From Ignavibacteriales bacterium (GTDB lineage: Bacteria; Bacteroidota; Ignavibacteria; Ignavibacteriales; Melioribacteraceae), in NCBI GenBank assembly GCA_016177735.1, contig JACOUS010000027.1:1-64000 (forward strand): a DNA stretch of 64,000 nucleotides. The letters are read 5' to 3'. The position numbers and the translations under genes were made by a program. The notes beneath the pieces were generated by a model that did not search any database, was not told where the DNA came from, and saw only the letters and a program-made list of their open reading frames with translations. Position 1 is the first letter of the stretch; the number at the start of each line of letters is the position of its first letter. This document shows positions 2,069-39,930 of the stretch, in pieces.

Positions 2069-3982
2069 ATGAAAAATCTTTTTTCCTTCTTAATATATTT
2101 TGCATTATTTGCCCCCGCTCTTTACGGGCAAAAGGATTTTGCCAATCATAAAGTTAATATGGATTCACTGGTGAGAGTCTCTCAAGCCGTAATTCTATCG
2201 GACGATCATACGTTCGAAATCAACAGCCACAAAGACTCCGAATATTCTGTTCATCTGAGAATACTTATCAAGAATAAAGGCGGTGAAAAATATGGCAAGG
2301 TTCGTCTGCTGGAAAATGAATACCGGGAAGTAAATGATATTGAAGCAGCCATACTCGATACTAATCAACGAACAATTAAAACACTCGACACCGATGATAT
2401 CGAAGAAAATGAAATATCGAGCGGATATGTTTTATATGCCGGCAATTCATATAAATCATTTTCGTTAACACACAACACTTACCCGTATATATTTGAGTGC
2501 AGTTATAGAGTTGACATAAAAAGTTTATTCTTCTGGCACGATTGGTACCCTCAGGATGAAGTGCCGGTACTTTCGTCTTCGTATAAATTGATATTGCACA
2601 CTCCAATTAGTTTCAACTACTATTCTGTTGGTATCGATACAAAGCCGGAGAAAAATTTAATCGGTGAAGATTCTGTTTACACTTGGAAGCTGGAAAACAT
2701 TCCTCCGCGGCTGCATGAAGATTATATGCCGCCTGAAAGCGAAGAACAAATGGCGCTCTATTTCAAGTCGGCTAATTTTATTTTAGATGAATACGAAGGC
2801 AATTCAATCAGTTGGAATTCGTTTGCCCAATGGTACCGGGATTTAACAAAAGAAAGATATGAACTGCCTCCGGCGGCAAAAGATGAAATTTCCAACAGAA
2901 TAAAAAACATCACCGACCCGAAAGAAAAAATTAAATCCATATACAAACTTCACCAGGAAAAAAATAAATATACTGCCATCGAAATGGGAATAAGAGGCTG
3001 GCAGCCGCAGCCGGCGGCAGATGTTTATAAAAACCGTTACGGCGATTGCAAAGATCTAACTACTTACATGGTCGCCGCATTAAAAACAATCGGCATCGAA
3101 AGTTACCCGGCTTTGGCGCTTACGCGCGATAACGGCAGAGTAAATAAAGATTTTCCGAGTCCTCAATTTAATCACTGCATTTTATGTGTTCCTTTATCAG
3201 GTGATACTTTATGGATAGAAACAACAAACCCGTATCTCGAGTTGGGTGATGTTCCCTATTCAATTGAAGATATCGATGTGCTTGTAGTAAAAGAAAATTC
3301 CGGGAAGCTGGAAAGAACATCCGTAAAGAAATCTTCTGAAAATGTTTTTGCTTCAACTTTGGAAGGTACTATTGATTTGACGGGCAATCTCAATTTCAAA
3401 ACAGAGATTAACACTACAGGCAATCGTAAAAATTATTTTAAAGAATACTTAATCAGTTATGATGATCAGGATGATTTAGAATTTCTGCACGATCAGCTTA
3501 CCGATAATTATAGATACCTCAGCTTACAAAATTTTTCGACACAAGAAATATTCGATAAGATTCATAAATATGTTATTACGCTGAACGGGGTTTACAACAA
3601 ATTTTTGCCGATGGTCGATAAAAGAGTTTTTGTTAATCCCGCAATAATAAATAGGAAGAACAGTAAAAGTTTGCCCGGAGAAAGTGTTTCCGAAAGAAAA
3701 TTTCCGGTGTTTTTTAGTTATCCGTATCAAATAATTGATTCGGTCGCTATCGAGCTGCCGCTAGGCTACACTTTAGAATCAAAGCCAAAAGGAAGTTCTT
3801 TTGAAAATTCTTTCGGCAAATATTTTTCTTCCTTTGAGTTTAACAACGGCAAATTATTTTACAAAAGGTTTTACGAAATAAAAATGAATTTGATTTCGCT
3901 CGAACAGTATAAAGATTTTATAGAATTCTTGAAACAGGTTATTGCCGCCGATAAAACAAGTTTTGTACTATTAAAAGAATAG
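2069..3982 (+). CDS. DUF3857/transglutaminase-like exported protein, likely active
   Basis: The start at 2069 is chosen because it begins a clean signal peptide (MKNLFSFLIYFALFAPALYG). Upstream Met codons lie inside the previous gene. The product has 638 residues: a DUF3857 domain (about 45-220), then a transglutaminase core with Cys327 in GDCKD and His369 in FNHC. The third residue appears to be Glu384 (LWIETT), where the family usually has Asp. This is the catalytically plausible member of the tandem pair and probably works in the periplasm or at the outer membrane. Its substrate cannot be told from sequence. Confidence 0.82.
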   Translation: MKNLFSFLIYFALFAPALYGQKDFANHKVNMDSLVRVSQAVILSDDHTFEINSHKDSEYSVHLRILIKNKGGEKYGKVRLLENEYREVNDIEAAILDTNQRTIKTLDTDDIEENEISSGYVLYAGNSYKSFSLTHNTYPYIFECSYRVDIKSLFFWHDWYPQDEVPVLSSSYKLILHTPISFNYYSVGIDTKPEKNLIGEDSVYTWKLENIPPRLHEDYMPPESEEQMALYFKSANFILDEYEGNSISWNSFAQWYRDLTKERYELPPAAKDEISNRIKNITDPKEKIKSIYKLHQEKNKYTAIEMGIRGWQPQPAADVYKNRYGDCKDLTTYMVAALKTIGIESYPALALTRDNGRVNKDFPSPQFNHCILCVPLSGDTLWIETTNPYLELGDVPYSIEDIDVLVVKENSGKLERTSVKKSSENVFASTLEGTIDLTGNLNFKTEINTTGNRKNYFKEYLISYDDQDDLEFLHDQLTDNYRYLSLQNFSTQEIFDKIHKYVITLNGVYNKFLPMVDKRVFVNPAIINRKNSKSLPGESVSERKFPVFFSYPYQIIDSVAIELPLGYTLESKPKGSSFENSFGKYFSSFEFNNGKLFYKRFYEIKMNLISLEQYKDFIEFLKQVIAADKTSFVLLKE

Positions 3983-4016
3983 TTTTTGCCTTTACTAATT
4001 GTCATAAACAATATTG

Positions 4017-4050
4017 CCGGCTTGGGGACTAGTCGTCCCTACCCAAAAAA
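4017..4050. repeat. Small intergenic palindrome
   Basis: TTGGGGAC, TAGTC, GTCCC and CCCAA form a compact hairpin-like element between the two genes, centred on the palindrome GACTAGTC. It is one of several short palindromes in the window and could act as a weak terminator, although no T-run follows. Confidence 0.4.
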
Positions 4051-4130
4051 TTGCATTTGAAAAATTCAGGCTAAAAATTATTTTTCATTAACAAGTTCTA
4101 TTAAAATAGCAGTCAGTATGAGGGTTAATC

Positions 4131-6794
4131 ATGTACAAAATTCTGTTCTTTTTAGTATTTGTTTTTACAGTATCCACAAATTTTTCGCAGTCCGCAGATT
4201 CAATCCTTTCATTAAACAACACCCAAATTTTTTCTGGAGAAAGTTATGTGTTCAAAACAGACTTGATAAGTAAGTTACCCGAAAAAGGAATTGACAACAT
4301 TATCAGATTTTTTCCCGGAATTATTTCGTACCATAATAATTATTATTTACGCGGAAGCAGAAGTAATGAAATTGGTTTTTTTGTTGACGGCGTTCAAATC
4401 AATGATTTGTTCACATGGCAAAATCCTTTTCGTTTGTCACCGCAATCGTTGGATGAGATCAACTTATATCCCGGCTATGTTCCGGTAGAATACGGAAATA
4501 TTTCTTCGGGCATGTTTGGTTTCAAATTAAAAACCGGCGGAGAACAGCTTCGTTTTAATATCGAGAACACAAGCGATAATATTTCTTTCAGCGGTGATCC
4601 GTTCGGTGAAAAGGAACGGCTCGGCACTTTTTGGTACGGCTACAATGAAATTAATGCAAACATTGGCGGACCTTTATTCACAAATAATATTAGATTTTTT
4701 GTTGATGCAAATTATCTTTTTAAGCGCGATCGTAATCCTCAAAAATATTCCGGCGTAAATAATTTTTTTGCTTTTGATAAAGTTACCAATGATTCGATAC
4801 GAATAAATCTTCCCAATGGAATAGTACCGGGCAACGGTCTTGATAATTACAATTTTACCTCAACACTGCTGTTCGATTTTGGTGAGTTGAAAATAAAAAC
4901 TTCCGGCATTTACTCTTTTCAAAGACAAGATGCTGAGCGGCTTCATATTCAAGAATATCTAAATCACCGTTACGGACAAATAGAAAACAAAGCCGGACTT
5001 TTTTCCGCTAACATTACTCATAACATCAGCGAAAATATTTCATACGAGTTAACCGGCAGTTATTTTTTCAGAAACGAAGAGACATTCGATCCTTATCTGA
5101 AAGATAATTATTGGGGTTATGGCGACAGCGTGGCAAATGCAGATGCCGGCATTGTTTGGAACCGCACAGCAAGGGATTTTCAGCGCAACTATTACGGGAG
5201 ATATGTTATTCCTAGAAGTTATCATGTATTTGATTTTAGTTTTATACGTGACGGTGCCCCGCCGGTTAACTATGCAAAATCAGAACAACAGAAAATATCT
5301 TTAAAAGGTTTGGCAAAACTAAACTTTTTTGATTCTCACAATATTTATTTGGGAGGGGAATATACAAGCGAACTTATTCGACTTTGGAAAGTAGGCTATC
5401 AACTTTCTTTTGCAAGAATCTTTCGTAACCTAAGTGCAGATCCTCGCAATAGTTCTGAAGAATCTATAAAAGAAATGATATTGAAAACTTATGGAGTGAA
5501 TAATTTTGGTTATGATCTTCTCGGCAACGCAGCCAATTCAGGTTTGTTTGCACCGCCGGAACCGACAACTTTTGCTCTCTTTGTAAATGATAATTTTACT
5601 TTAGCTGATTCACTGCAACTGAATATTGGATTGCGTTACGAATACAGAGATTACAATTACAGAAAGATTATCGACCCGTTATTTCCCGATAAAACTTTTA
5701 TTCGCTCTTTTAATAATGAAATAAAAGAAGACGGTCTCACTGATACAAAAAGTTATTCGTTTATTCTGCCGAAACTTAATATCAATTACCGGCTCTTCAA
5801 CAATCTCTCTTTTTCGTTAAGATATTCCGGTAATGTTCAATCGCATAATTACAATGAATTGTTCCAGGGGTTTTTTCATCAAGGATATTTGCTGACATAT
5901 GGCAGATGGAACGGGAATGATCCGTTTTTAAACGGTGATTTAAAACCGATCGAGACTTCCCTCGTAGAATTTTCTTCAGATTACAACCCGGCTGATAATA
6001 TCAGCCTACGTTTCAATTACTTTTATAAGCAGATCAAAAATCAATCGTCGTTAGATTACCAAAAAGTTGATCGGAATTCGGCATTTTACAAATATGTAAT
6101 ACAAACCGGGGAATCAAACTCTTTCGTCAACGGTACCGATTTAATGTTGGAGTTTTTAGATAAGCGTTTTGAAATATTTTCTTCGCTCTCTTATCAAAAT
6201 GCACGCGGTTCTTTTTTAACTTCTCACGATAACTCTTACGGAGATTTCATTTACACTTCTGCACCTACTACAAGTAACAATGAAATTAATCTAAAAGCTT
6301 TCGTCAGCTATAATTTTTTTGACCTAAAAAAGTTTTCATCTCTTTTTGAAAACATGAACACATCATTAATGATTACTTTCAATAACGGTCATCCTTATAC
6401 CTTAATCAAAAATTACAGTAGAACCGAGTCGGATATCAGGGATATGAAACCGATTGGAGAAATTAACGGACTTACAACGCCGTCAATTACTCAAATAGAT
6501 TTCAAACTGGAAAAGAATATTTCTTTGTTTGATAAAGTAAACGTTGGAGTCTATCTGATGATTATCAATCTTTTTGACAGCAGAAATGTTTATGATGTTT
6601 TTCGATCAAGCGGGTCACCCGATTATGATGCACATGTTTCAGATCCTGAATTGTACCATATTTACGTTCAGTCGTATGGCGAAAAATATCTCGATCTTTA
6701 CAAAATGAATCTGGAATACAACCCGCGGGATGGGCAGCAATATTTTTACGGACCGCCGAGACAAATTTATCTCGGTATAAAATTGAATTACTAA
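4131..6794 (+). CDS. TonB-dependent receptor
   Basis: An outer-membrane protein of 887 residues. A signal peptide (1-20) leads directly into a plug domain (about 45-140; motifs DNIIRFFPGI, YLRGSRSNEI and FVDGVQIND). A long beta-barrel region rich in aromatic/polar alternation follows and ends in the aromatic residue Tyr. It lacks the N-terminal carboxypeptidase-like domain that the receptor at the right edge has. The family takes up siderophores, cobalamin, metal chelates or glycans, driven by TonB-ExbBD. No neighbouring lipoprotein or hydrolase fixes the substrate, so it is left open. Confidence 0.85.
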   Translation: MYKILFFLVFVFTVSTNFSQSADSILSLNNTQIFSGESYVFKTDLISKLPEKGIDNIIRFFPGIISYHNNYYLRGSRSNEIGFFVDGVQINDLFTWQNPFRLSPQSLDEINLYPGYVPVEYGNISSGMFGFKLKTGGEQLRFNIENTSDNISFSGDPFGEKERLGTFWYGYNEINANIGGPLFTNNIRFFVDANYLFKRDRNPQKYSGVNNFFAFDKVTNDSIRINLPNGIVPGNGLDNYNFTSTLLFDFGELKIKTSGIYSFQRQDAERLHIQEYLNHRYGQIENKAGLFSANITHNISENISYELTGSYFFRNEETFDPYLKDNYWGYGDSVANADAGIVWNRTARDFQRNYYGRYVIPRSYHVFDFSFIRDGAPPVNYAKSEQQKISLKGLAKLNFFDSHNIYLGGEYTSELIRLWKVGYQLSFARIFRNLSADPRNSSEESIKEMILKTYGVNNFGYDLLGNAANSGLFAPPEPTTFALFVNDNFTLADSLQLNIGLRYEYRDYNYRKIIDPLFPDKTFIRSFNNEIKEDGLTDTKSYSFILPKLNINYRLFNNLSFSLRYSGNVQSHNYNELFQGFFHQGYLLTYGRWNGNDPFLNGDLKPIETSLVEFSSDYNPADNISLRFNYFYKQIKNQSSLDYQKVDRNSAFYKYVIQTGESNSFVNGTDLMLEFLDKRFEIFSSLSYQNARGSFLTSHDNSYGDFIYTSAPTTSNNEINLKAFVSYNFFDLKKFSSLFENMNTSLMITFNNGHPYTLIKNYSRTESDIRDMKPIGEINGLTTPSITQIDFKLEKNISLFDKVNVGVYLMIINLFDSRNVYDVFRSSGSPDYDAHVSDPELYHIYVQSYGEKYLDLYKMNLEYNPRDGQQYFYGPPRQIYLGIKLNY

Positions 6795-26016: not shown

Positions 26017-26174
26017 AATGATAAAGGATGAGATTTATAAAATTTGCTTGAATCTTTTTGCGGAAAGATTGAGATTGCAGTTAATTAATTCAAATGCTGA
26101 TAAAAGTAAATACAAAATGTAAAAATTATTCTGCGAGAGGGTAATGAATGAAAGAAAACATTAGTGAACATTTT

Positions 26175-26208
26175 AAAACAGCAATCCCGCTGTTAGGCGG
26201 GACTACTG
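26175..26208 (-). terminator. tracrRNA distal terminator
   Basis: On the minus strand, CAGTAGTCCCGC-CTAACA-GCGGGATTGCTG forms a stem with two mismatches, followed by TTTT. It closes the second scaffold module. Confidence 0.65.
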
Positions 26209-26249
26209 TAAATGTTTTCACAACGGAATAATCCTTATTGTGAAAGAAT

Positions 26250-26273
26250 AAAAAGCCCTACCGAAGTAGGGCT
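26250..26273 (-). terminator. tracrRNA proximal terminator
   Basis: On the minus strand, AGCCCTAC-TTCG-GTAGGGCT is a perfect 8-bp stem with a UUCG tetraloop, followed by T5. It would end a tracrRNA of about 80 nt. Confidence 0.8.
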
Positions 26274-26367
26274 AAATTTCCTACGGTATCCCTTTCGGGA
26301 ACCTTATTGTGAAAAGCTTTCATGTGAAAATAATAAATTGTTTTTCAAAACAAAAGGATAAAGAATA

Positions 26368-29300
26368 ATGGCAAAAATTCTTGGATTAGACTTAGGAACT
26401 AACTCAATTGGCTGGGCGCTGATTGATGATTCCAAAAAAGAAATTATTAAAACAAATGTGAGAATTTTTCCAGAAGGTGTTAATGATATTAATCAATCAA
26501 AGGAAAAATCTAAAAATGCTGACAGACGAATTGCACGCGGTATTAGAAGAAACAACTTCCGCTTTAAAAAGCGAAGAGAACGATTAAAAAAAGTTCTGAA
26601 AGAATTGGGCATGATGCCTGATGAGAAATATTACACATTCATGAAGAAAAAGAAAGATGAAAAAAATTATCTCACTATTGAACTTTACAAACTAAGAAAA
26701 GATGCCTTGGAAAAACCATTGCGTTTGGAAGATTTAGGAAGAATATTCCTTCAGCTAAATAACCATAGAGGCTTTAAGAGCAATAAAAAAGAAGAAGCAA
26801 ATAAGGAGTTTAAGCCAAACATAAAAGATGCAGGCAAAATTAACACACTTGTACAAAAGCAAAGTACTCTCTTTACTCTTAATAAGAGGAAGGAAAAATT
26901 ATTGAAAGAAATTGAGGAGTTAAAAATCTCTCAGAGAAAAGACGCTGCAAAAAGAATTAATACACGAGAGAAAAAAATAAAGGGAATAAAAAATAAAATT
27001 AAAGAGATTGAAGAAGTAAAAACATTGCAAGAAAAAATTGATGAGGCAAAAAATAATGGGTTAATTAAATATGGCACCTTAGGAGAATATTTTTATCATA
27101 GAATTGAATTAAATAAGAATTCTCACAATCCCAATCACCCATTTGTTGAGCAAAATGGCACGGGAAGGTTGCGTAACAACGATGAGGGAAAGGGAGAATA
27201 CACAACAAGGGAGATTTTCGAATTTGAATTTGACACAATTTGGGAAATACAAAAAGGGCTGAATAAAAATAATCCAACTGTTTTAAGCGCTTTTTCAGAT
27301 GAGAACAAACGAAAAATAAAAGACGAATGTATTTTTTATCAGCGCGATTTGCGATCACAAAAGCATTTGGTTGACAGATGCAAATATGAATTCACAGAAT
27401 ATTTTGTTTACTGTTTTGATGAAAAAAAATTACAGCAGCAAGTTGATACTATTACATTCTCTAATTCAAAACCGCCCGAGACATTTTTAACAGCTACACA
27501 AAAGAAAAAACTTTTAGAATTTTTAAGTAAGCAGAATAAGATCAATGTTGCTGATTTAAAGAACCTTGTTGGGATAAAAGACGACTTCCAAAAAGTTAAT
27601 AAAACTTTCAAGAATCATACTCTCATTCATCATTTACCACAAGAAAGAATTTGGGAGAGAGATTATTTGCCATGCTGTCATATAAGTTCACTCGAATTTC
27701 AGGAATTCAGAATATGGGATAAGGTGAATAATCTCCGCTATGTTGATGATGAAGAGAGTGAGTATTCTTTAACATTGGAACAAAGAAAGATTCTGGTTGA
27801 AAAGCTGCAGAGCGTAACTTCACTTACAATTGAAACCGGAAATAAAGCCAGCGATGAGGAAAAAGAAGAAGCTGCTGAAATTAAGGAAGCCTTAGGACTA
27901 ACTAACAAGCATAAGTTCAAAGAACAAAAACTAAAAGGCAATGTTACCGTAGAAAAGTTAAAAGAAGCACTAGGAGAGGATTATTGGAATTCACTAAGCC
28001 CAATCACTACTGAATTAGAGATAGAAGATATTGATAAAACGACTGGTGAAATTGTAAAACTTAAAAGCCCCTTTCAATATTCAGATAAGCAAAGACAATT
28101 TTACAACAACATTGTCTTTGCTATGAATTTTACAAAAAGCATTGACTGGCTCCTAGGGAAAGGCAAAGCCAAAAAATGGAAAGAAAGCTTAAGCAAACTT
28201 AAAGAGGAAGCAACGAAGACTGATCATGAATTAACTGATTCGCAGATTGAAGCATATTCAAGAATTTCTTTTGAACCAGATTATTGCAATTATAGTCTAA
28301 AAGCAATTAAAAAACTTTTGCCTTGGATGAAACAAGGTTTAAACTCATCACAAGCAGCAGAAAAAGTCGGTTATGAATCCGCCTCTGATGAAAGAAGGAA
28401 TGATAATTTTCTTCAGGATAAACTGCCTGACTTAAAAAATAACAGCTTACGAAACCCTATTGTGCAAAAAGGAATTACAGAGACAATCAAACTCGTTAAT
28501 GAAATTATTGAAAAAGAATTGGGTGGAATTAAACCCGACAAGATACATCTGGAAATGGCTCGCGAATTAAAGAAACCTAAAAAAGCACGACTCGAAATGA
28601 AAAAGAAAAATGATGAGAAAGAAAAAGAGAGAAATCACTGGAAAGAATTTTTGAAACAGACGTTGGGTGTTTATCCCTCTGGCAGCACTCTATCAAAATT
28701 TGAGCTGTTTCTTGAGCTGGAACATCAGAAAGAGAATTTTGAAGAAAAAAAGAACCAAATCAGCGTAGAGGAGTTTATAACTTTTTGTAAAGAAGTAATG
28801 GGAGAAAGTATTTCTATATCAAGAAAAAAGTTCATTGAACTCAAAATGGAGCTAAATAAAAAAAACGATAATAAAAATACAGATGAAAAAGGATATGAAA
28901 CTATTTCAGCCAGCGAAGGTGAGCTAGAAGAGAAAAAAAAATCTGATAAAAATCATCTAAAATTGCTTAAGTACAGATTATATTTAGAGTGTAATAGAAT
29001 TCTTCCTTATACCGGACAACCAATTGGGTTGAAAAGGTTACTTTCCGATAATTCAGATATTGAAATAGAACATATCATCCCCTACAGTCGTTGCATGGAC
29101 GATTCTTTTTTGAATAAAACACTGTCTGACAGAACATTTAATACTTTAAAGGGTAAGCAAACTCCGATAGAATTTTTTGCGTCGAATCTTGTAGAAAAGA
29201 AGAAATTCTTCATCCGTGTTAACAAAATTGCAAATGATGAAAAGAAAAAAAGATTTCTTTTGGAAGGCGATAAAGCACTAGAAGATTTTCGAAACAGCCA

Positions 29301-30858
29301 ACTTGTGAATACTGCTTACATCGGATCTGAAGTTAAGAAACATTTACTCAACACTTTTAAAAGAGATGATATCATTCTAACCAATGGACAAATCACAGCA
29401 ATGCTGAGATCATTCTTGGGATTTACCAAAGTTCTGAATACACCTATGAAATTTGAAGGCGAATATAACAAAGGTCTTTATTGGGCTTATGTAAATCAAG
29501 AAGGAAAAATTGAAAGATTAATTGAAAGGAATAAAGAAGATGATAAAAAACCGGAACCTGAAAATCATTCACGGAGAGTTATTAAGGGTTTTGTATATGA
29601 AGGACAGGACGGCAAGAGATTTCAGCCGCAAAAGCAACGCAACGACCATCGTCATCATTCTATTGATGCAGTAACAATTGCATTGTCTTCAAACAAAATT
29701 GCTAATATTATCCAGAAGAACACCGAAGGTTATTATGTAAAAAATGGGAAACCAATTCAAAAATATGAAGATGGAGCTATTTGGGTGAAAAAATTTGATG
29801 AGAATGGAGAACTCGCAAACGAAACAAGGAAAAAAATAATAGATGAGATAAATGCCGAATTAAATTTCCCAAACTTATGGATAAAAACAAAAAATGCAGT
29901 TGAACATATTCCAGTATCCTATAGTAATAAAAATAGGATTCTCTCTGCAGCAAAAAGAAAAATTCATAAAAACAATCTTACTTTTTATAGTGGAGGAGAT
30001 ATTGCAAGAGGTGCTTTACATGAGGAGTCATTATATGGAAATATCCAATATCCGTATAATGATAAATCAGATTGGAATGAAAAAGAGAATGGTATTTATG
30101 TAATAAGAAAAGCTCTAAAGTATAATAAGAAAGGGTATTTTGGAAAGATAGAACAATTAGAAAAAATCATCGATCCTAAAATTCGGGAAATCGTAATAGA
30201 AGAAGTTAATTCCGTAGGCATGAAAAAGGCATTGGATACTGGAGTATTTCTTCCCAATAAAAATGGTAATCCTACCCCCATAAAAAAAGTACGAATTGCC
30301 AGTGACACACAAGAATTAACATGGATAAGGAAACACAAACAAGGCACTAAAGAAAACAAGAAAAAAGTGTGGGTTGAAACTGGAGATAATTACTGCATTG
30401 CTCTATATGGTAACGAAGTGGTAGAAAAAAAAGAAAAACGTGAATTTAGATCGATTTCCTTTCTTGAAGCTGTAAGGAAAACAAAAAGAGGAGAACAATT
30501 ATTTCCCGAACAATTAAATGGTAAAAAACTTCTTACTTCTCTTTCGAAGAAAGATATGGTACTGGTTTACAAAGAACATCCGGATGAAATTACACATTTA
30601 ATCGGTAAAAAAAATGATGACTATACCAAAGAAGATAAAGAATTATTGTTTAAACGTCTTTTTGTAGTTAGGAAATCTGATAAGAACGGAATAATAGTTT
30701 TGAGTAGGCATAATTTATCGGGTGCTAGACAAGAAGATGATATCACCGTAAAAGATTTAGATTCAACTGAAGGAAAAGTAATTCGATGCAATCAAAGTAC
30801 TTTTAAAGGAATAAAAATAAGCATCGACCGACTAGGTAACATAAAACCAGCTTTGTAA
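26368..30858 (+). CDS. cas9: Cas9, type II-C, large form
   Basis: A 1496-residue RNA-guided endonuclease. RuvC-I has Asp8 (LGLDLGTNSIGWALI). An Arg-rich bridge helix follows (DRRIARGIRRNNFRFKKRR). The REC region runs to about 700 and contains a Lys/Glu-rich coiled-coil stretch at about 170-235. RuvC-II has Glu729 (IHLEMAREL). The HNH domain has His902 (IEIEHIIPYSR) and the Asn in FNTLKGK. RuvC-III has His1097 and Asp1100 (HHSIDAV). A C-terminal region of about 395 residues should hold the WED and PAM-interacting domains. About 95 residues (770-865) separate RuvC-II from HNH, more than I expect. All nuclease residues are present. The start has AAGGAT upstream. Confidence 0.95.
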   Translation: MAKILGLDLGTNSIGWALIDDSKKEIIKTNVRIFPEGVNDINQSKEKSKNADRRIARGIRRNNFRFKKRRERLKKVLKELGMMPDEKYYTFMKKKKDEKNYLTIELYKLRKDALEKPLRLEDLGRIFLQLNNHRGFKSNKKEEANKEFKPNIKDAGKINTLVQKQSTLFTLNKRKEKLLKEIEELKISQRKDAAKRINTREKKIKGIKNKIKEIEEVKTLQEKIDEAKNNGLIKYGTLGEYFYHRIELNKNSHNPNHPFVEQNGTGRLRNNDEGKGEYTTREIFEFEFDTIWEIQKGLNKNNPTVLSAFSDENKRKIKDECIFYQRDLRSQKHLVDRCKYEFTEYFVYCFDEKKLQQQVDTITFSNSKPPETFLTATQKKKLLEFLSKQNKINVADLKNLVGIKDDFQKVNKTFKNHTLIHHLPQERIWERDYLPCCHISSLEFQEFRIWDKVNNLRYVDDEESEYSLTLEQRKILVEKLQSVTSLTIETGNKASDEEKEEAAEIKEALGLTNKHKFKEQKLKGNVTVEKLKEALGEDYWNSLSPITTELEIEDIDKTTGEIVKLKSPFQYSDKQRQFYNNIVFAMNFTKSIDWLLGKGKAKKWKESLSKLKEEATKTDHELTDSQIEAYSRISFEPDYCNYSLKAIKKLLPWMKQGLNSSQAAEKVGYESASDERRNDNFLQDKLPDLKNNSLRNPIVQKGITETIKLVNEIIEKELGGIKPDKIHLEMARELKKPKKARLEMKKKNDEKEKERNHWKEFLKQTLGVYPSGSTLSKFELFLELEHQKENFEEKKNQISVEEFITFCKEVMGESISISRKKFIELKMELNKKNDNKNTDEKGYETISASEGELEEKKKSDKNHLKLLKYRLYLECNRILPYTGQPIGLKRLLSDNSDIEIEHIIPYSRCMDDSFLNKTLSDRTFNTLKGKQTPIEFFASNLVEKKKFFIRVNKIANDEKKKRFLLEGDKALEDFRNSQLVNTAYIGSEVKKHLLNTFKRDDIILTNGQITAMLRSFLGFTKVLNTPMKFEGEYNKGLYWAYVNQEGKIERLIERNKEDDKKPEPENHSRRVIKGFVYEGQDGKRFQPQKQRNDHRHHSIDAVTIALSSNKIANIIQKNTEGYYVKNGKPIQKYEDGAIWVKKFDENGELANETRKKIIDEINAELNFPNLWIKTKNAVEHIPVSYSNKNRILSAAKRKIHKNNLTFYSGGDIARGALHEESLYGNIQYPYNDKSDWNEKENGIYVIRKALKYNKKGYFGKIEQLEKIIDPKIREIVIEEVNSVGMKKALDTGVFLPNKNGNPTPIKKVRIASDTQELTWIRKHKQGTKENKKKVWVETGDNYCIALYGNEVVEKKEKREFRSISFLEAVRKTKRGEQLFPEQLNGKKLLTSLSKKDMVLVYKEHPDEITHLIGKKNDDYTKEDKELLFKRLFVVRKSDKNGIIVLSRHNLSGARQEDDITVKDLDSTEGKVIRCNQSTFKGIKISIDRLGNIKPAL

Positions 30859-30939: not shown

Positions 30940-31974
30940 ATGATCAAACGAACTTTATACTTCAGTAACCCGGCGTACCTTTCTAAAAAGAACGAGCAGC
31001 TTGTTATTAAAAGCCTTGATTATGATAAAGATTATGCCCGGCAGAATTTTGACGGGCAAGAAAAATATCACAATAGTACAAACGAACTGGAAACTAATGT
31101 TGCGGAAAAAAGCGAAGGATGGCTCTATAAAAGAAAAGAGATTACAAAACAAGTTTTAAACACTGTTCCGATTGAAGATATCGGAATTGTTGTTTTGGAT
31201 AATCATCAAATTACATTAACACACGGACTTCTTGATTCGCTTCTTGAAAATAATTCCGCAATAGTAACGTGCAATAAATCTCATATGCCAAGCGGACTTT
31301 TTATGCCGCTTTCAGCAAACGATGAGCAGTCGCAAAAATTCAGAGCGCAGATCGAATCATCCGAACCGTTGAAAAAACAATTATGGTCGCAGACTATCAC
31401 GGCAAAGATTCTCAATCAAGCGGCAAACATCAATGAAAGAAAAATTCCGATCAACAACATGATAACATGGGCAAAAAAAGTACGCTCCGGCGATCCCGAT
31501 AATTACGAAGGACGTGCCGCTGCTTACTATTGGAAAAATTTCTTTCCGATGATTCCAAATTTTATACGCGACCGTTACGGCGAACCGCCTAATAATTTAT
31601 TCAACTACGGCTATGCAATTCTGCGCGCAATTATTGCAAGAGCACTTGCCGGCTCAGGTTTAATGCCGACTCTCGGCATCCATCATTCTAACAAGTACAA
31701 CGCCTATTGTTTGGCTGATGATATTATGGAACCGTACCGTCCGTATGTTGATAGAGTTGTTTATACAATGGTAAGCAACGGAGAAGATTTTTACGAACTC
31801 AACACTTCTATAAAAAAACAATTATTGGAAATCGCAACTGCAGATGTAATTATCGAGGAGAAAAGAAGTCCGCTGATGGTGGCGGCACAGAGAACAACTG
31901 CATCGCTTGCAAAATGTTTTGAAGGTGAAACAAGAAAAATTATTTATCCGGAAATAAAATTTAACTCTCCCTAA
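30940..31974 (+). CDS. cas1: Cas1 integrase
   Basis: 344 residues. The N-terminal beta domain starts RTLYFSNPAYLSKKNEQLVI. The catalytic helical domain carries the metal ligands Glu190 (NYEGRAAAYYW), His248 (LGIHHSN) and Asp261/Glu264 (ADDIMEPYRPYVD), as in type II Cas1. With Cas2 it integrates new spacers. The loop at about 27-70 (DKDYARQNFDGQEK and on) looks longer than in the type II-C Cas1 proteins I know. Confidence 0.96.
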   Translation: MIKRTLYFSNPAYLSKKNEQLVIKSLDYDKDYARQNFDGQEKYHNSTNELETNVAEKSEGWLYKRKEITKQVLNTVPIEDIGIVVLDNHQITLTHGLLDSLLENNSAIVTCNKSHMPSGLFMPLSANDEQSQKFRAQIESSEPLKKQLWSQTITAKILNQAANINERKIPINNMITWAKKVRSGDPDNYEGRAAAYYWKNFFPMIPNFIRDRYGEPPNNLFNYGYAILRAIIARALAGSGLMPTLGIHHSNKYNAYCLADDIMEPYRPYVDRVVYTMVSNGEDFYELNTSIKKQLLEIATADVIIEEKRSPLMVAAQRTTASLAKCFEGETRKIIYPEIKFNSP

Positions 31975-32075: not shown

Positions 32076-32420
<345 letters not shown>

Positions 32421-32637: not shown

Positions 32638-35600
32638 CTTGGTTTTAAACTTATCAAAGAAACATTTGAAAGCAAGTCACAACAAGATAGATGCTATCAA
32701 ACTATTATTATTCTTGGTTTTAAACTTATCAAAGAAACATTTGAAAGCAAGTCACAACCTTCAGCTTTGATGTTGCAAAGAGATTTAGCTTGGTTTTAAA
32801 CTTATCAAAGAAACATTTGAAAGCAAGTCACAACATGGCTCCGAAACTTTAACAACTGTTCAAGCTTGGTTTTAAACTTATCAAAGAAACATTTGAAAGC
32901 AAGTCACAACTTTAAGAGTTTTATGCCAAAATTTTTTTCTCTTGGTTTTAAACTTATCAAAGAAACATTTGAAAGCAAGTCACAACTAAACATTTTTAAT
33001 TACTGTTTTCTTAGACTTGGTTTTAAACTTATCAAAGAAACATTTGAAAGCAAGTCACAACTCTAAATATTCAGGGTTGATTCTAATTTCACTTGGTTTT
33101 AAACTTATCAAAGACACATTTGAAAGCAAGTCACAACACCACTCTAAATTTGAACATCCAAGCACTTCTTGGTTTTAAACTTATCAAAGAAACATTTGAA
33201 AGCAAGTCACAACTCCATTTGAAGTAGTCGCATTATAAAGAGCTTGGTTTTAAACTTATCAAAGAAACATTTGAAAGCAAGTCACAACTATGGTTCTAAT
33301 CGGCATCATTTCATTAAACTTGGTTTTAAACTTATCAAAGAAACATTTGAAAGCAAGTCACAACTCATAAGCGGAGATATAAAGTTCTGCCTCTCTTGGT
33401 TTTAAACTTATCAAAGAAACATTTGAAAGCAAGTCACAACTTAATGCATATTCGGATTGGTTGCATTTACTTGGTTTTAAACTTATCAAAGAAACATTTG
33501 AAAGCAAGTCACAACTCTGATTGTAAATCATTCCCTCCGGCTTTTCTTGGTTTTAAACTTATCAAAGAAACATTTGAAAGCAAGTCACAACACTAACATT
33601 GTGTTTTTCATTTTAAATATCTTGGTTTTAAACTTATCAAAGAAACATTTGAAAGCAAGTCACAACACTGATATGTTTGCTATAACAAAAATAAACTTGG
33701 TTTTAAACTTATCAAAGAAACATTTGAAAGCAAGTCACAACCTTATGCTGCTGCTAATGCTGCTGATGATCTTGGTTTTAAACTTATCAAAGAAACATTT
33801 GAAAGCAAGTCACAACTTAATCGGCGAGGGTGCTTCTTCTTGCAAACTTGGTTTTAAACTTATCAAAGAAACATTTGAAAGCAAGTCACAACACTAACTC
33901 ATAAGGGAAACTGCAAATTTTCTTGGTTTTAAACTTATCAAAGAAACATTTGAAAGCAAGTCACAACATAGCCACTTGTTTGCCGTGCCGTTATCTCCTT
34001 GGTTTTAAACTTATCAAAGAAACATTTGAAAGCAAGTCACAACTTTATCATCTAATAAAATCGGTAGCTTATTCTTGGTTTTAAACTTATCAAAGAAACA
34101 TTTGAAAGCAAGTCACAACTAACGCCTACAGTGATTGTATTGTTAGTACTTGGTTTTAAACTTATCAAAGAAACATTTGAAAGCAAGTCACAACGTTAGC
34201 GTGAATAAGAAATATCCAAAAAAACTTGGTTTTAAACTTATCAAAGAAACATTTGAAAGCAAGTCACAACTTATGAGATAAGTGGAAGCGGACTGGACGA
34301 CTTGGTTTTAAACTTATCAAAGAAACATTTGAAAGCAAGTCACAACTTGTCAATGGAATCATTGTACATAATTCTGCTTGGTTTTAAACTTATCAAAGAA
34401 ACATTTGAAAGCAAGTCACAACTCACTATAAGACTTAGATTCTAAAACTTTTCTTGGTTTTAAACTTATCAAAGAAACATTTGAAAGCAAGTCACAACAA
34501 GATATTGAACAATTAGAGAAAGAATTAACTTGGTTTTAAACTTATCAAAGAAACATTTGAAAGCAAGTCACAACTCAGTGATTGAAGGATAACGAAATTT
34601 TACACTTGGTTTTAAACTTATCAAAGAAACATTTGAAAGCAAGTCACAACTCCTAATGCTTCGCAACATTCATCAAGTGACTTGGTTTTAAACTTATCAA
34701 AGAAACATTTGAAAGCAAGTCACAACTTAATAGGCAAGGGTGATTCTTCTTGCAAACTTGGTTTTAAACTTATCAAAGAAACATTTGAAAGCAAGTCACA
34801 ACTTTCTTCTTTATCCCTCCCTCTCTTAGTATCTTGGTTTTAAACTTATCAAAGAAACATTTGAAAGCAAGTCACAACATAACAATGAAACGTTAGCTAC
34901 ATCCTATGCTTGGTTTTAAACTTATCAAAGAAACATTTGAAAGCAAGTCACAACCCAAAATTCAATTTGCCTCCACTGTCTTACCTTGGTTTTAAACTTA
35001 TCAAAGAAACATTTGAAAGCAAGTCACAACAATGCAAGTTCAACAGGATTGCCAGCTTTTCTTGGTTTTAAACTTATCAAAGAAACATTTGAAAGCAAGT
35101 CACAACCTTTCATCGTACCTGTCATTTGCTGAATAACTTGGTTTTAAACTTATCAAAGAAACATTTGAAAGCAAGTCACAACAGCAACGCGAGTCCCATA
35201 GCGGAACTAATTCTTGGTTTTAAACTTATCAAAGAAACATTTGAAAGCAAGTCACAACTTAATTTCCCACAACTCCCAACGAATTTTCTTGGTTTTAAAC
35301 TTATCAAAGAAACATTTGAAAGCAAGTCACAACGACTGCACGTGTTGTAATATAAGGGTGCACCTTGGTTTTAAACTTATCAAAGAAACATTTGAAAGCA
35401 AGTCACAACAAGTCCTTTTGGAATTGCTTTCATAAGATTCTTGGTTTTAAACTTATCAAAGAAACATTTGAAAGCAAGTCACAACTGATGTGAAATGATA
35501 AATTCCAATACATTACTTGGTTTTAAACTTATCAAAGAAACATTTGAAAGCAAGTCACAACTCATACAACCCGTAAACACCGCTTCCAATTCTTGGTTTT

Positions 35601-36850
35601 AAACTTATCAAAGAAACATTTGAAAGCAAGTCACAACTTGTGGTACTGATCAATGCAGGAAACACTTCTTGGTTTTAAACTTATCAAAGAAACATTTGAA
35701 AGCAAGTCACAACAAAGAAACCTGTTTCCTTTTTCTGCACGGGCTTGGTTTTAAACTTATCAAAGAAACATTTGAAAGCAAGTCACAACGAATCTTCGTT
35801 GCTACCGAATCGCTTCCGCTTGGTTTTAAACTTATCAAAGAAACATTTGAAAGCAAGTCACAACTAATATACATAAAAGGGCGGCTATTTACACTTGGTT
35901 TTAAACTTATCAAAGAAACATTTGAAAGCAAGTCACAACCAACTGTTCATTTACCTTTCAAATGAAAATCTTGGTTTTAACCTTATCAAAGAAACATTTG
36001 AAAGCAAGTCACAACGTGAATCCGGAAGTTAAATAAACATGATTACTTGGTTTTAAACTTATCAAAGAAACATTTGAAAGCAAGTCACAACGCTGAGATA
36101 CATTCCCGATGTTGACGACATCTTGGTTTTAAACTTATCAAAGAAACATTTGAAAGCAAGTCACAACCACCGGCAGAACTGCCTTCGAGAAATTCACCTT
36201 GGTTTTAAACTTATCAAAGAAACATTTGAAAGCAAGTCACAACAAGTATCCATGCGCTGATCCAGTAAGCATCCTTGGTTTTAAACTTATCAAAGAAACA
36301 TTTGAAAGCAAATCACAACTCAACAAGTAAATATAAATCAAGCGCCCAACTTGGTTTTAAACTTATCAAAGAAACATTTGAAAGCAAGTCACAACTCCGG
36401 GAAAAATCCACCTCGCGGCGCTTCTCTTGGTTTTAAACTTATCAAAGAAACATTTGAAAGCAAGTCACAACAACTGCACCTTGCATCCATTTGGCGCTTC
36501 CCTTGGTTTTAAACTTATCAAAGAAACATTTGAAAGCAAGTCACAACGGGAAAGACGATGCGAATAACGAGGCGTAACTTGGTTTTAAACTTATCAAAGA
36601 AACATTTGAAAGCAAGTCACAACTGATGAAGCGATAAATAAATTATAAAATGCTTGGTTTTAAACTTATCAAAGAAACATTTGAAAGCAAGTCACAACCT
36701 TTGTTAAAAAATGTAGCTCATTGTTGTTCTTGGTTTTAAACTTATCAAAGAAACATTTGAAAGCAAATCACAACTAGGGGACTTAGATTGGAAACTTGAT
36801 ACTCCTTGGTTTTAAACTTATCAAAGAAACATTTGAAAGCAAATCACAAC

Positions 36851-36937
36851 CAAACAAGTCAGGCGCCGCGTTATAGGTTTAATTGGACTGCTGAAATTTA
36901 TATTTATCCTACCGGACCTATCCCAAACGATGGATGG
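36851..36937. other. Over-long terminal spacer, 87 nt
   Basis: The interval between the last intact repeat and the split repeat is 87 nt, about three times the normal spacer. It is open in one frame (RYRFNWTAEIYIYPTGPIPN). It may be two spacers fused by loss of a repeat, or a spacer with an insertion. Confidence 0.7.
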
Positions 36938-37081
36938 CTTGGTTTTAATCGTGCCTTCGGCAGACAAGACTTATCAAACTTGTCCCGTGCTTTTTACGGG
37001 AGAAACATTTGACTTGTCCCGATGTATTTTATGCCGCTTTTCGGCATGCCGTACAGCGGCATCGGGAAAGCAAATCACAAC
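36938..37081. repeat. Terminal CRISPR repeat split by three hairpin insertions
   Basis: Four pieces occur in order: CTTGGTTTTAA (36938-36948), ACTTATCAAA (36969-36978), GAAACATTTGA (37002-37012) and AAGCAAATCACAAC (37068-37081). Joined, they give exactly one 46-nt repeat (the AAATCAC variant). The three inserts are 20, 23 and 55 nt long and each can form a hairpin. Confidence 0.9.
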
Positions 37082-39594: not shown

Positions 39595-39675
39595 TCCTAA
39601 CCTTTCAAAGTAATTACGAAGTACGAATTTCAAAATAACAAACAAAAAATGCTAATCCGCCAACGCGGAACAAGA

Positions 39676-39930
39676 AACTATCTACAAGTACGAAATACGA
39701 AGTACGAGGTACGAATAAAGAATGACAAAAAAAAAAATTACAAATAACAATCAACACGAAACCAACTACGAGTACGAAAGACGAAGTACGAGGAACGAAT
39801 AAAGAATGACCAAAAAAAAATTACAAATAACAATCAACACGAAACCAATTACAAATACGAAATACGAAGTACGAGGTACGAATAAAGAATGACCAAAAAA
39901 AAAAAATTACGATGGAAGAAAATCGAAGTA
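39676..39930. repeat. Tandem repeat of about 84 bp, nearly three copies
   Basis: Units begin with ACGAAGTACGAGG near 39697, 39781 and 39864 (periods 84 and 83). Each contains GAATAAAGAATGAC, an A-run and, in the first two, ACAAATAACAATCAACACGA. Copies differ mainly in the A-run length. It lies upstream of the esterase gene, and the rest of the 459-bp gap shows no gene. Confidence 0.8.

Follow-up and report, generated by a model that had tools for sequence, protein, structure and literature searches.

Introduction

The way in which REP-like palindromes spread has been an open question for a long time, one reason being that empty sites are seldom visible. Small dispersed repeats (SDRs) of Nostoc were reportedly described by Elhai et al. 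in 2008 as hairpin-forming units of about 21-27 nt, with nested copies. One of them, SDR5, inserts precisely within HIP1 (PMC4390886). REPs, with the super-families GTAG and CGTC, are dispersed palindromes of 20-40 nt, one end of which bears a short unpaired tag; some REP families sit within other palindromes, and those of the CGTC super-family have been described from Chlorobi and Bacteroidetes and lack a dedicated transposase (PMC3733652). In REPINs, which move with RAYT transposases, the mobile unit is a doublet, and a single REP is taken to be a remnant (PMC3116915, PMC8266576). Mitochondrial double-hairpin elements and the mobile GC-rich elements of yeast are reported as very small hairpins inserted in AT-rich DNA (PMC4478555 and others).

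Here, we describe a CRISPR repeat that is divided into four pieces by three short inserts. It lies in a window of 64,000 nt, which is the whole stretch of DNA that was analysed. In our judgement, with a probability of about 0.85, each of the three inserts belongs to one family of very small mobile DNA elements, which combine a CTTG tag with a flush hairpin.

The interrupted repeat

The locus has the make-up of a type II CRISPR-Cas system, with cas9, cas1 and cas2 followed by an array (Table 1). Among its 56 uninterrupted repeats, which serve as empty sites, 51 are identical and five carry one substitution; the array is presumably on the minus strand, an assumption drawn from what is generally known of GTTGTG-type type II repeats. 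The 57th repeat is the interrupted one, and the spacer before it (36851-36937) is 87 nt long versus the usual 29-30 nt.

Table 1. Coordinates of the features; positions are those of the window, except for the array of the relative G018.
Feature	Position	Strand	Remarks
cas9	26368..30858	+	1496 aa; TIGR01865, 469 bits
cas1 of type II	30940..31974	+	TIGR03639, 295 bits
cas2	32091..32420	+	TIGR01573, 72 bits
CRISPR array	32638..36850	- (presumed)	56 uninterrupted 46-nt repeats; spacers 29-30 nt
Interrupted repeat, piece 1	36938..36948		repeat positions 1-11
Insert 1	36949..36968	-	20 nt; minus-strand CTTGTCTGCCGAAGGCACGA; weak, diverged family member
Interrupted repeat, piece 2	36969..36978		repeat positions 12-21
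Insert 2	36979..37001	+	23 nt; CTTG + hairpin TCCCGTGCTTTTTACGGGA
Interrupted repeat, piece 3	37002..37012		repeat positions 22-32
Insert 3	37013..37067	+	55 nt; read as 25-nt family member CTTGTCCCGATGTATTTTATCGGGA with nested insert
Nested hairpin block in insert 3	37033..37062		30 nt; GCCGCTTTTCGGCATGCCGTACAGCGGCAT; placement uncertain by ~2 nt
Interrupted repeat, piece 4	37068..37081		repeat positions 33-46
G018 CRISPR array	L089 (G018:C1:2984000-3003000), ~2620-5240	reverse	

An earlier note on this DNA held that removal of the three inserts rebuilds one 46-nt repeat. The reconstruction is indeed exact to the base: joined together, the four pieces give CTTGGTTTTAAACTTATCAAAGAAACATTTGAAAGCAAATCACAAC, which departs from the repeat only by a G-to-A substitution at position 39, shared by three intact repeats near the same array end. 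The shared ends described there are also as stated, in that inserts 2 and 3 both start with CTTGTCCCG and end with CGGGA, while insert 1 starts with CTTGTC on its minus strand. The note's view that all three inserts fold stands for inserts 2 and 3, with DNA folding at z -4.7 each, and holds only weakly for insert 1, at z -0.9. The stem of insert 2 has 6 bp, its first pairs being T-A and then C-G. Reversed and weakly folding, insert 1 is the least certain member, and its CTTGTC start and short stem suggest membership weakly; CTTG-TC-hairpin variants with other stems do occur elsewhere.

Inserts 2 and 3 have close relatives with other flanks. In the sister species (G001), three copies, none of which is in a CRISPR repeat, are one base away from insert 2; two of the three sit in a common dispersed-repeat context, and the third is placed in a tRNA-Cys remnant, within its T-loop, not far from the intact tRNA-Cys gene. 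Without its inner 30-nt hairpin block, insert 3 becomes a 25-mer, and G001 and G016 have copies that differ from it by two bases. Since this remainder matches copies in relatives, insert 3 is, judging by its sequence, probably an element inserted in an element.

A dispersed family with a constant tag

What defines the family is an unpaired 5′ tag, CTTG (sometimes CCTG), in front of a flush hairpin whose stem varies but is usually TCCCG...CGGGA; its elements usually measure 18-25 nt in all. In the window, CTTGTCCCG has two copies, both in the interrupted repeat (chance 0.22). CTTGTC alone, the end by which the earlier note proposed to search for hairpins, shows no enrichment there (24 versus 23 expected), so the case draws on the tag together with its flush, variable-stem hairpin and on counts over the whole genome. 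In this genome, CTTGTCCCG-N(3-12)-CGGGA occurs 12 times versus 0 in the reversed control, CTTGTCCCG 28 times versus 2 (several of the 28 not being hairpins), and TCCCGN{3,30}CGGGA 136 times per strand versus 5 in the control. The pattern CYTGTCCCGN{3,30}CGGGA is found 17 times here and 13, 47, 23 and 15 times in four relatives, with 0-1 in controls.

The combined tag and hairpin pattern is present in 14 of the 29 near-relative genomes (this one included) and, across the phylum, in 85 of 297; single matches in distant genomes lie little above the reversed control and prove little. Clear excess is seen in some genomes of the order, such as this one (G000), G001, G015, G016 and G018, and a few others. 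Matches to CTTGTCCCG in G196 look protein-coding and were set aside.

As an unbiased test of the tag, we took 400 kb of this genome, picked without regard to the motif, with CTTG fixed beforehand from the window. The sample holds 157 GC-rich flush hairpins with 314 ends, and CTTG is their commonest tag (7 versus 1.2 expected, p = 0.0003). Two of these seven hairpins are near-copies of each other; the stems include TTCGCC, CCCGCC and TCCGCC. Given that the stems differ, the constant part is the tag, as in REPs.

Empty and filled sites

Because CRISPR repeats are identical copies, the exact DNA before and after each insertion is visible in them. The single-contig relative G018 has a different CRISPR repeat, CTTTTAATCGAACCATAATGGAATTGAGAC, of which 17 copies are empty and 13 are filled with CTTGTCCCGCCCTGGCGGGA (loop variants) at one insertion position, in two forms differing by one G; a 51-nt double hairpin is additionally present close to the 3′ end of some repeats of this array. 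Empty repeats are interspersed with filled ones, and some of the spacers or repeat-spacer blocks occur in duplicate, which makes recombination within the array part of the story. The G018 repeat was not found in the congener G342 or in 26 other genomes. As for the window's own locus, a Cas9 scan for related loci returned none in the set of genome contigs searched and distant Cas9s only across the order, and no counterpart of the interrupted-repeat locus was found in other genomes.

Duplicated tRNA pieces provide a second kind of site. This genome has two tandem tRNA-Ser remnants with three exact hairpin inserts each, beside the intact gene. A tRNA-Arg remnant (L029 1358-1540, G000 C38), adjoined by an intact tRNA-Arg, carries a D-loop insert, and its anticodon arm is replaced by CCCCGACAAAGTCGGGG; in tRNA-Asp remnants of G290, the anticodon arm is replaced by TCCCGAGC...GCTCGGGA. 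In these two kinds of remnant, the arm is replaced rather than simply inserted into, and hence a second process may exist. It may be added that tRNA-Ser remnants of two genera, L020 1455-1760 (G000 C29) and L050 (G006), have hairpins at the same two places, the first of which differs between them by paired changes in both arms. Also in G290, tandem tRNA-Asp/tRNA-Gly genes are interspersed with remnants (L130, G290:C12:95000-106000, 4200-6400), and one acceptor stem has a CTTG hairpin.

Dispersed repeats are the third kind of site. One is empty at L002 and filled by different family members at L015 and L019, and G016 and G015 have repeats that add further empty/filled pairs; within any one CRISPR or dispersed-repeat group, the members do not count as independent events. 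The earlier note had called for a search of this genome and its relatives for copies with empty-site counterparts, and these were thus found at CRISPR repeats, tRNA remnants and dispersed repeats.

That note also saw neither loss nor duplication of the target. The ends have a slack of 0 nt in insert 1, 1 nt (A) in insert 2 and 2 nt (GA) in insert 3, so that the absence of target duplication here means at most 0, 1 or 2 nt of hidden duplication, respectively; across the empty/filled pairs, no consistent target duplication or loss was seen, and at a few sites (G018 variant B, G016, tRNA-Arg) one base next to the insert is extra or changed. No 5′ tetramer is shared among the left flanks AAGT, CAAA, TTGA, ACCA, TTTA, GTTG and CGGA, and their last base is often A. 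A preference of insertion points for loops (mean percentile 0.68 over 12 non-independent sites) is suggestive only. The terminal CRISPR repeat, probably dispensable for function, and the tRNA remnants are probably tolerated targets; being the sites where insertions are recognisable, they give no measure of target preference.

We conclude that the elements form a family, that they are dispersed and probably nest in one another, and that they are inserted exactly, in both orientations, at several unrelated targets. The mobile hairpin family suspected in the earlier note is borne out by dispersed copies with near-zero reversed controls and by several empty/filled pairs. Very small mobile hairpins as such, a family of which was unfamiliar to that note, are a known kind, with REPs and cyanobacterial SDRs as the closest examples.

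Comparison with described elements

With REPs, the CTTG family shares the layout of a short unpaired tag and a hairpin, about 20-40 nt in length, in many dispersed copies. It differs in its stem, usually 5-8 bp and beginning TC/GA rather than AT, and in occurring mostly as single units, for which CRISPR repeats and tRNA remnants offer exact empty sites. Unlike GTAG REPs, the collected copies are tagged CTTG or CCTG and show no association with the RAYT genes examined, only one of which, in G016, has a copy nearby. CGTC REPs have the tag CGTC (or TGTC, CCTC), A-T first stem pairs, a stem of 8-9 bp and a CCA tail, whereas in the CTTG family the tag is followed by TCCCG and there is no CCA tail. 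REPINs are likewise short, palindromic, non-autonomous DNA with a folded single strand as the presumed substrate, but the unit inserted here is a single hairpin and no RAYT association was found for it.

Nostoc SDRs come closest in size, nesting and precision, a likeness of description; they belong to a different lineage, presumably with different sequence, and the CTTG family has a shared CTTG tag and no fixed target octamer that we could see. The mitochondrial and yeast elements are organellar and resemble the family by description only. The conserved target of 4-5 nt directly 5′ of IS200/IS605 elements is not seen here, nor is the fixed-length target-site duplication of a classical DDE transposon or MITE, given the slack at the three inserts.

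The CTTG tag, the empty sites in tRNA and CRISPR sequences and the lack of a RAYT link look new, and no report of a REP-like element inside a CRISPR repeat was found in the open-licence part of the literature that was searched. Tentatively, and at slightly less than even odds, CTTG palindromes may constitute a third REP-like class, spread as single hairpins of about 20 nt by non-RAYT machinery, among the smallest of mobile DNAs and with a before-and-after record in CRISPR repeats and tRNA remnants. What matters is that CRISPR repeats and duplicated tRNA pieces provide exact empty sites, into which single hairpins of about 20 nt insert without consistent duplication. The array of G018, in which empty repeats lie among filled ones in spacer order, is usable for studying insertion, loss or gene conversion, and the tag with its hairpin is a defined substrate for finding the responsible enzyme.

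Moving agent and alternative explanations

The evidence for movement consists of its products, movement itself not having been observed. We propose that the elements would insert as single hairpins in either orientation, also into one another, without consistent duplication or loss of the target, and that copies would have accumulated in the last repeat of the array. Movement may proceed via a folded single-stranded intermediate, on whose tag and hairpin an enzyme would act in trans, an HUH-type nuclease being the first suspect.

Such an enzyme could be a resident RAYT (TnpA-REP, HUH) that moves the copies as ordinary REPs, a sub-question compatible with our explanation, and one that we consider rather unlikely to be answered in favour of RAYT. 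The tag and palindrome do follow the REP layout (PMC3733652), Y1 transposase genes are present (four in this genome, and in 24 of the 29 genomes searched), and one RAYT gene of G016 has a CTTGTCCCG hairpin about 100 nt away. However, the tag differs from both GTAG and CGTC, the palindromes next to the RAYT genes examined in this genome are different ones that have no CTTG tag, and copy numbers do not track RAYT numbers among genomes (rho -0.08), with G004 and G006 having a family copy and no RAYT match. Reverse transcriptase was considered as well: the copy-rich genomes G001, G016 and G018 have no RVT_1 matches, which leaves an RNA route needing a resident reverse transcriptase unsupported. 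As a separate observation, five CTCCGTCCTAAAGGACGGAG palindromes adjoin a Y1 transposase gene of G018, downstream of it (L079); this is likely a RAYT with its own REPs.

Without any mobile unit, hairpins might be made locally by replication errors, such as fold-back or template switching. GC-rich hairpins of many kinds are indeed in excess in the 400-kb sample (157 versus 105-121 in controls), and arms of tRNA remnants are replaced by hairpins. Yet local fold-back cannot account for one shared tag and for near-identical 23-25-mers at targets that are unrelated and lie in different species, and what was inserted does not copy the flanks, so that we regard this origin as improbable. Still less probable is a role of the terminal repeat in the CRISPR locus, as a functional RNA or a regulatory element in which hairpins were selected. 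Its position at the array end and the folding of the whole 144 nt, repeat and inserts, which is better than that of shuffles (z -3.9), would fit such a role, but the same elements are also present at a great distance from CRISPR loci, both in tRNA remnants and in dispersed repeats, and the interrupted repeat has no Rfam match. An assembly or chimera artefact is the least probable origin: the draft assembly has 44 contigs and repeat arrays are error-prone, but the sites are of several kinds and come from different genomes, and the second CRISPR example is in the single-contig G018.

Other observations

The CTTGTCCCG hairpins in rnpB of several genomes lie at variable stems that may well be native, and their alignment mixed orientations; they were left uncounted as insertions. 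In the order's rnpB genes (L226-L255), peripheral stems are often TCCCG...CGGGA, some of them preceded by CTTG. Upstream of cas9, the window has a candidate tracrRNA region (26130-26330) with a hairpin TCCCGCTGTTAGGCGGGA at 26185-26202. Finally, an 83-nt intergenic repeat is present in three tandem copies at 39645-39894.
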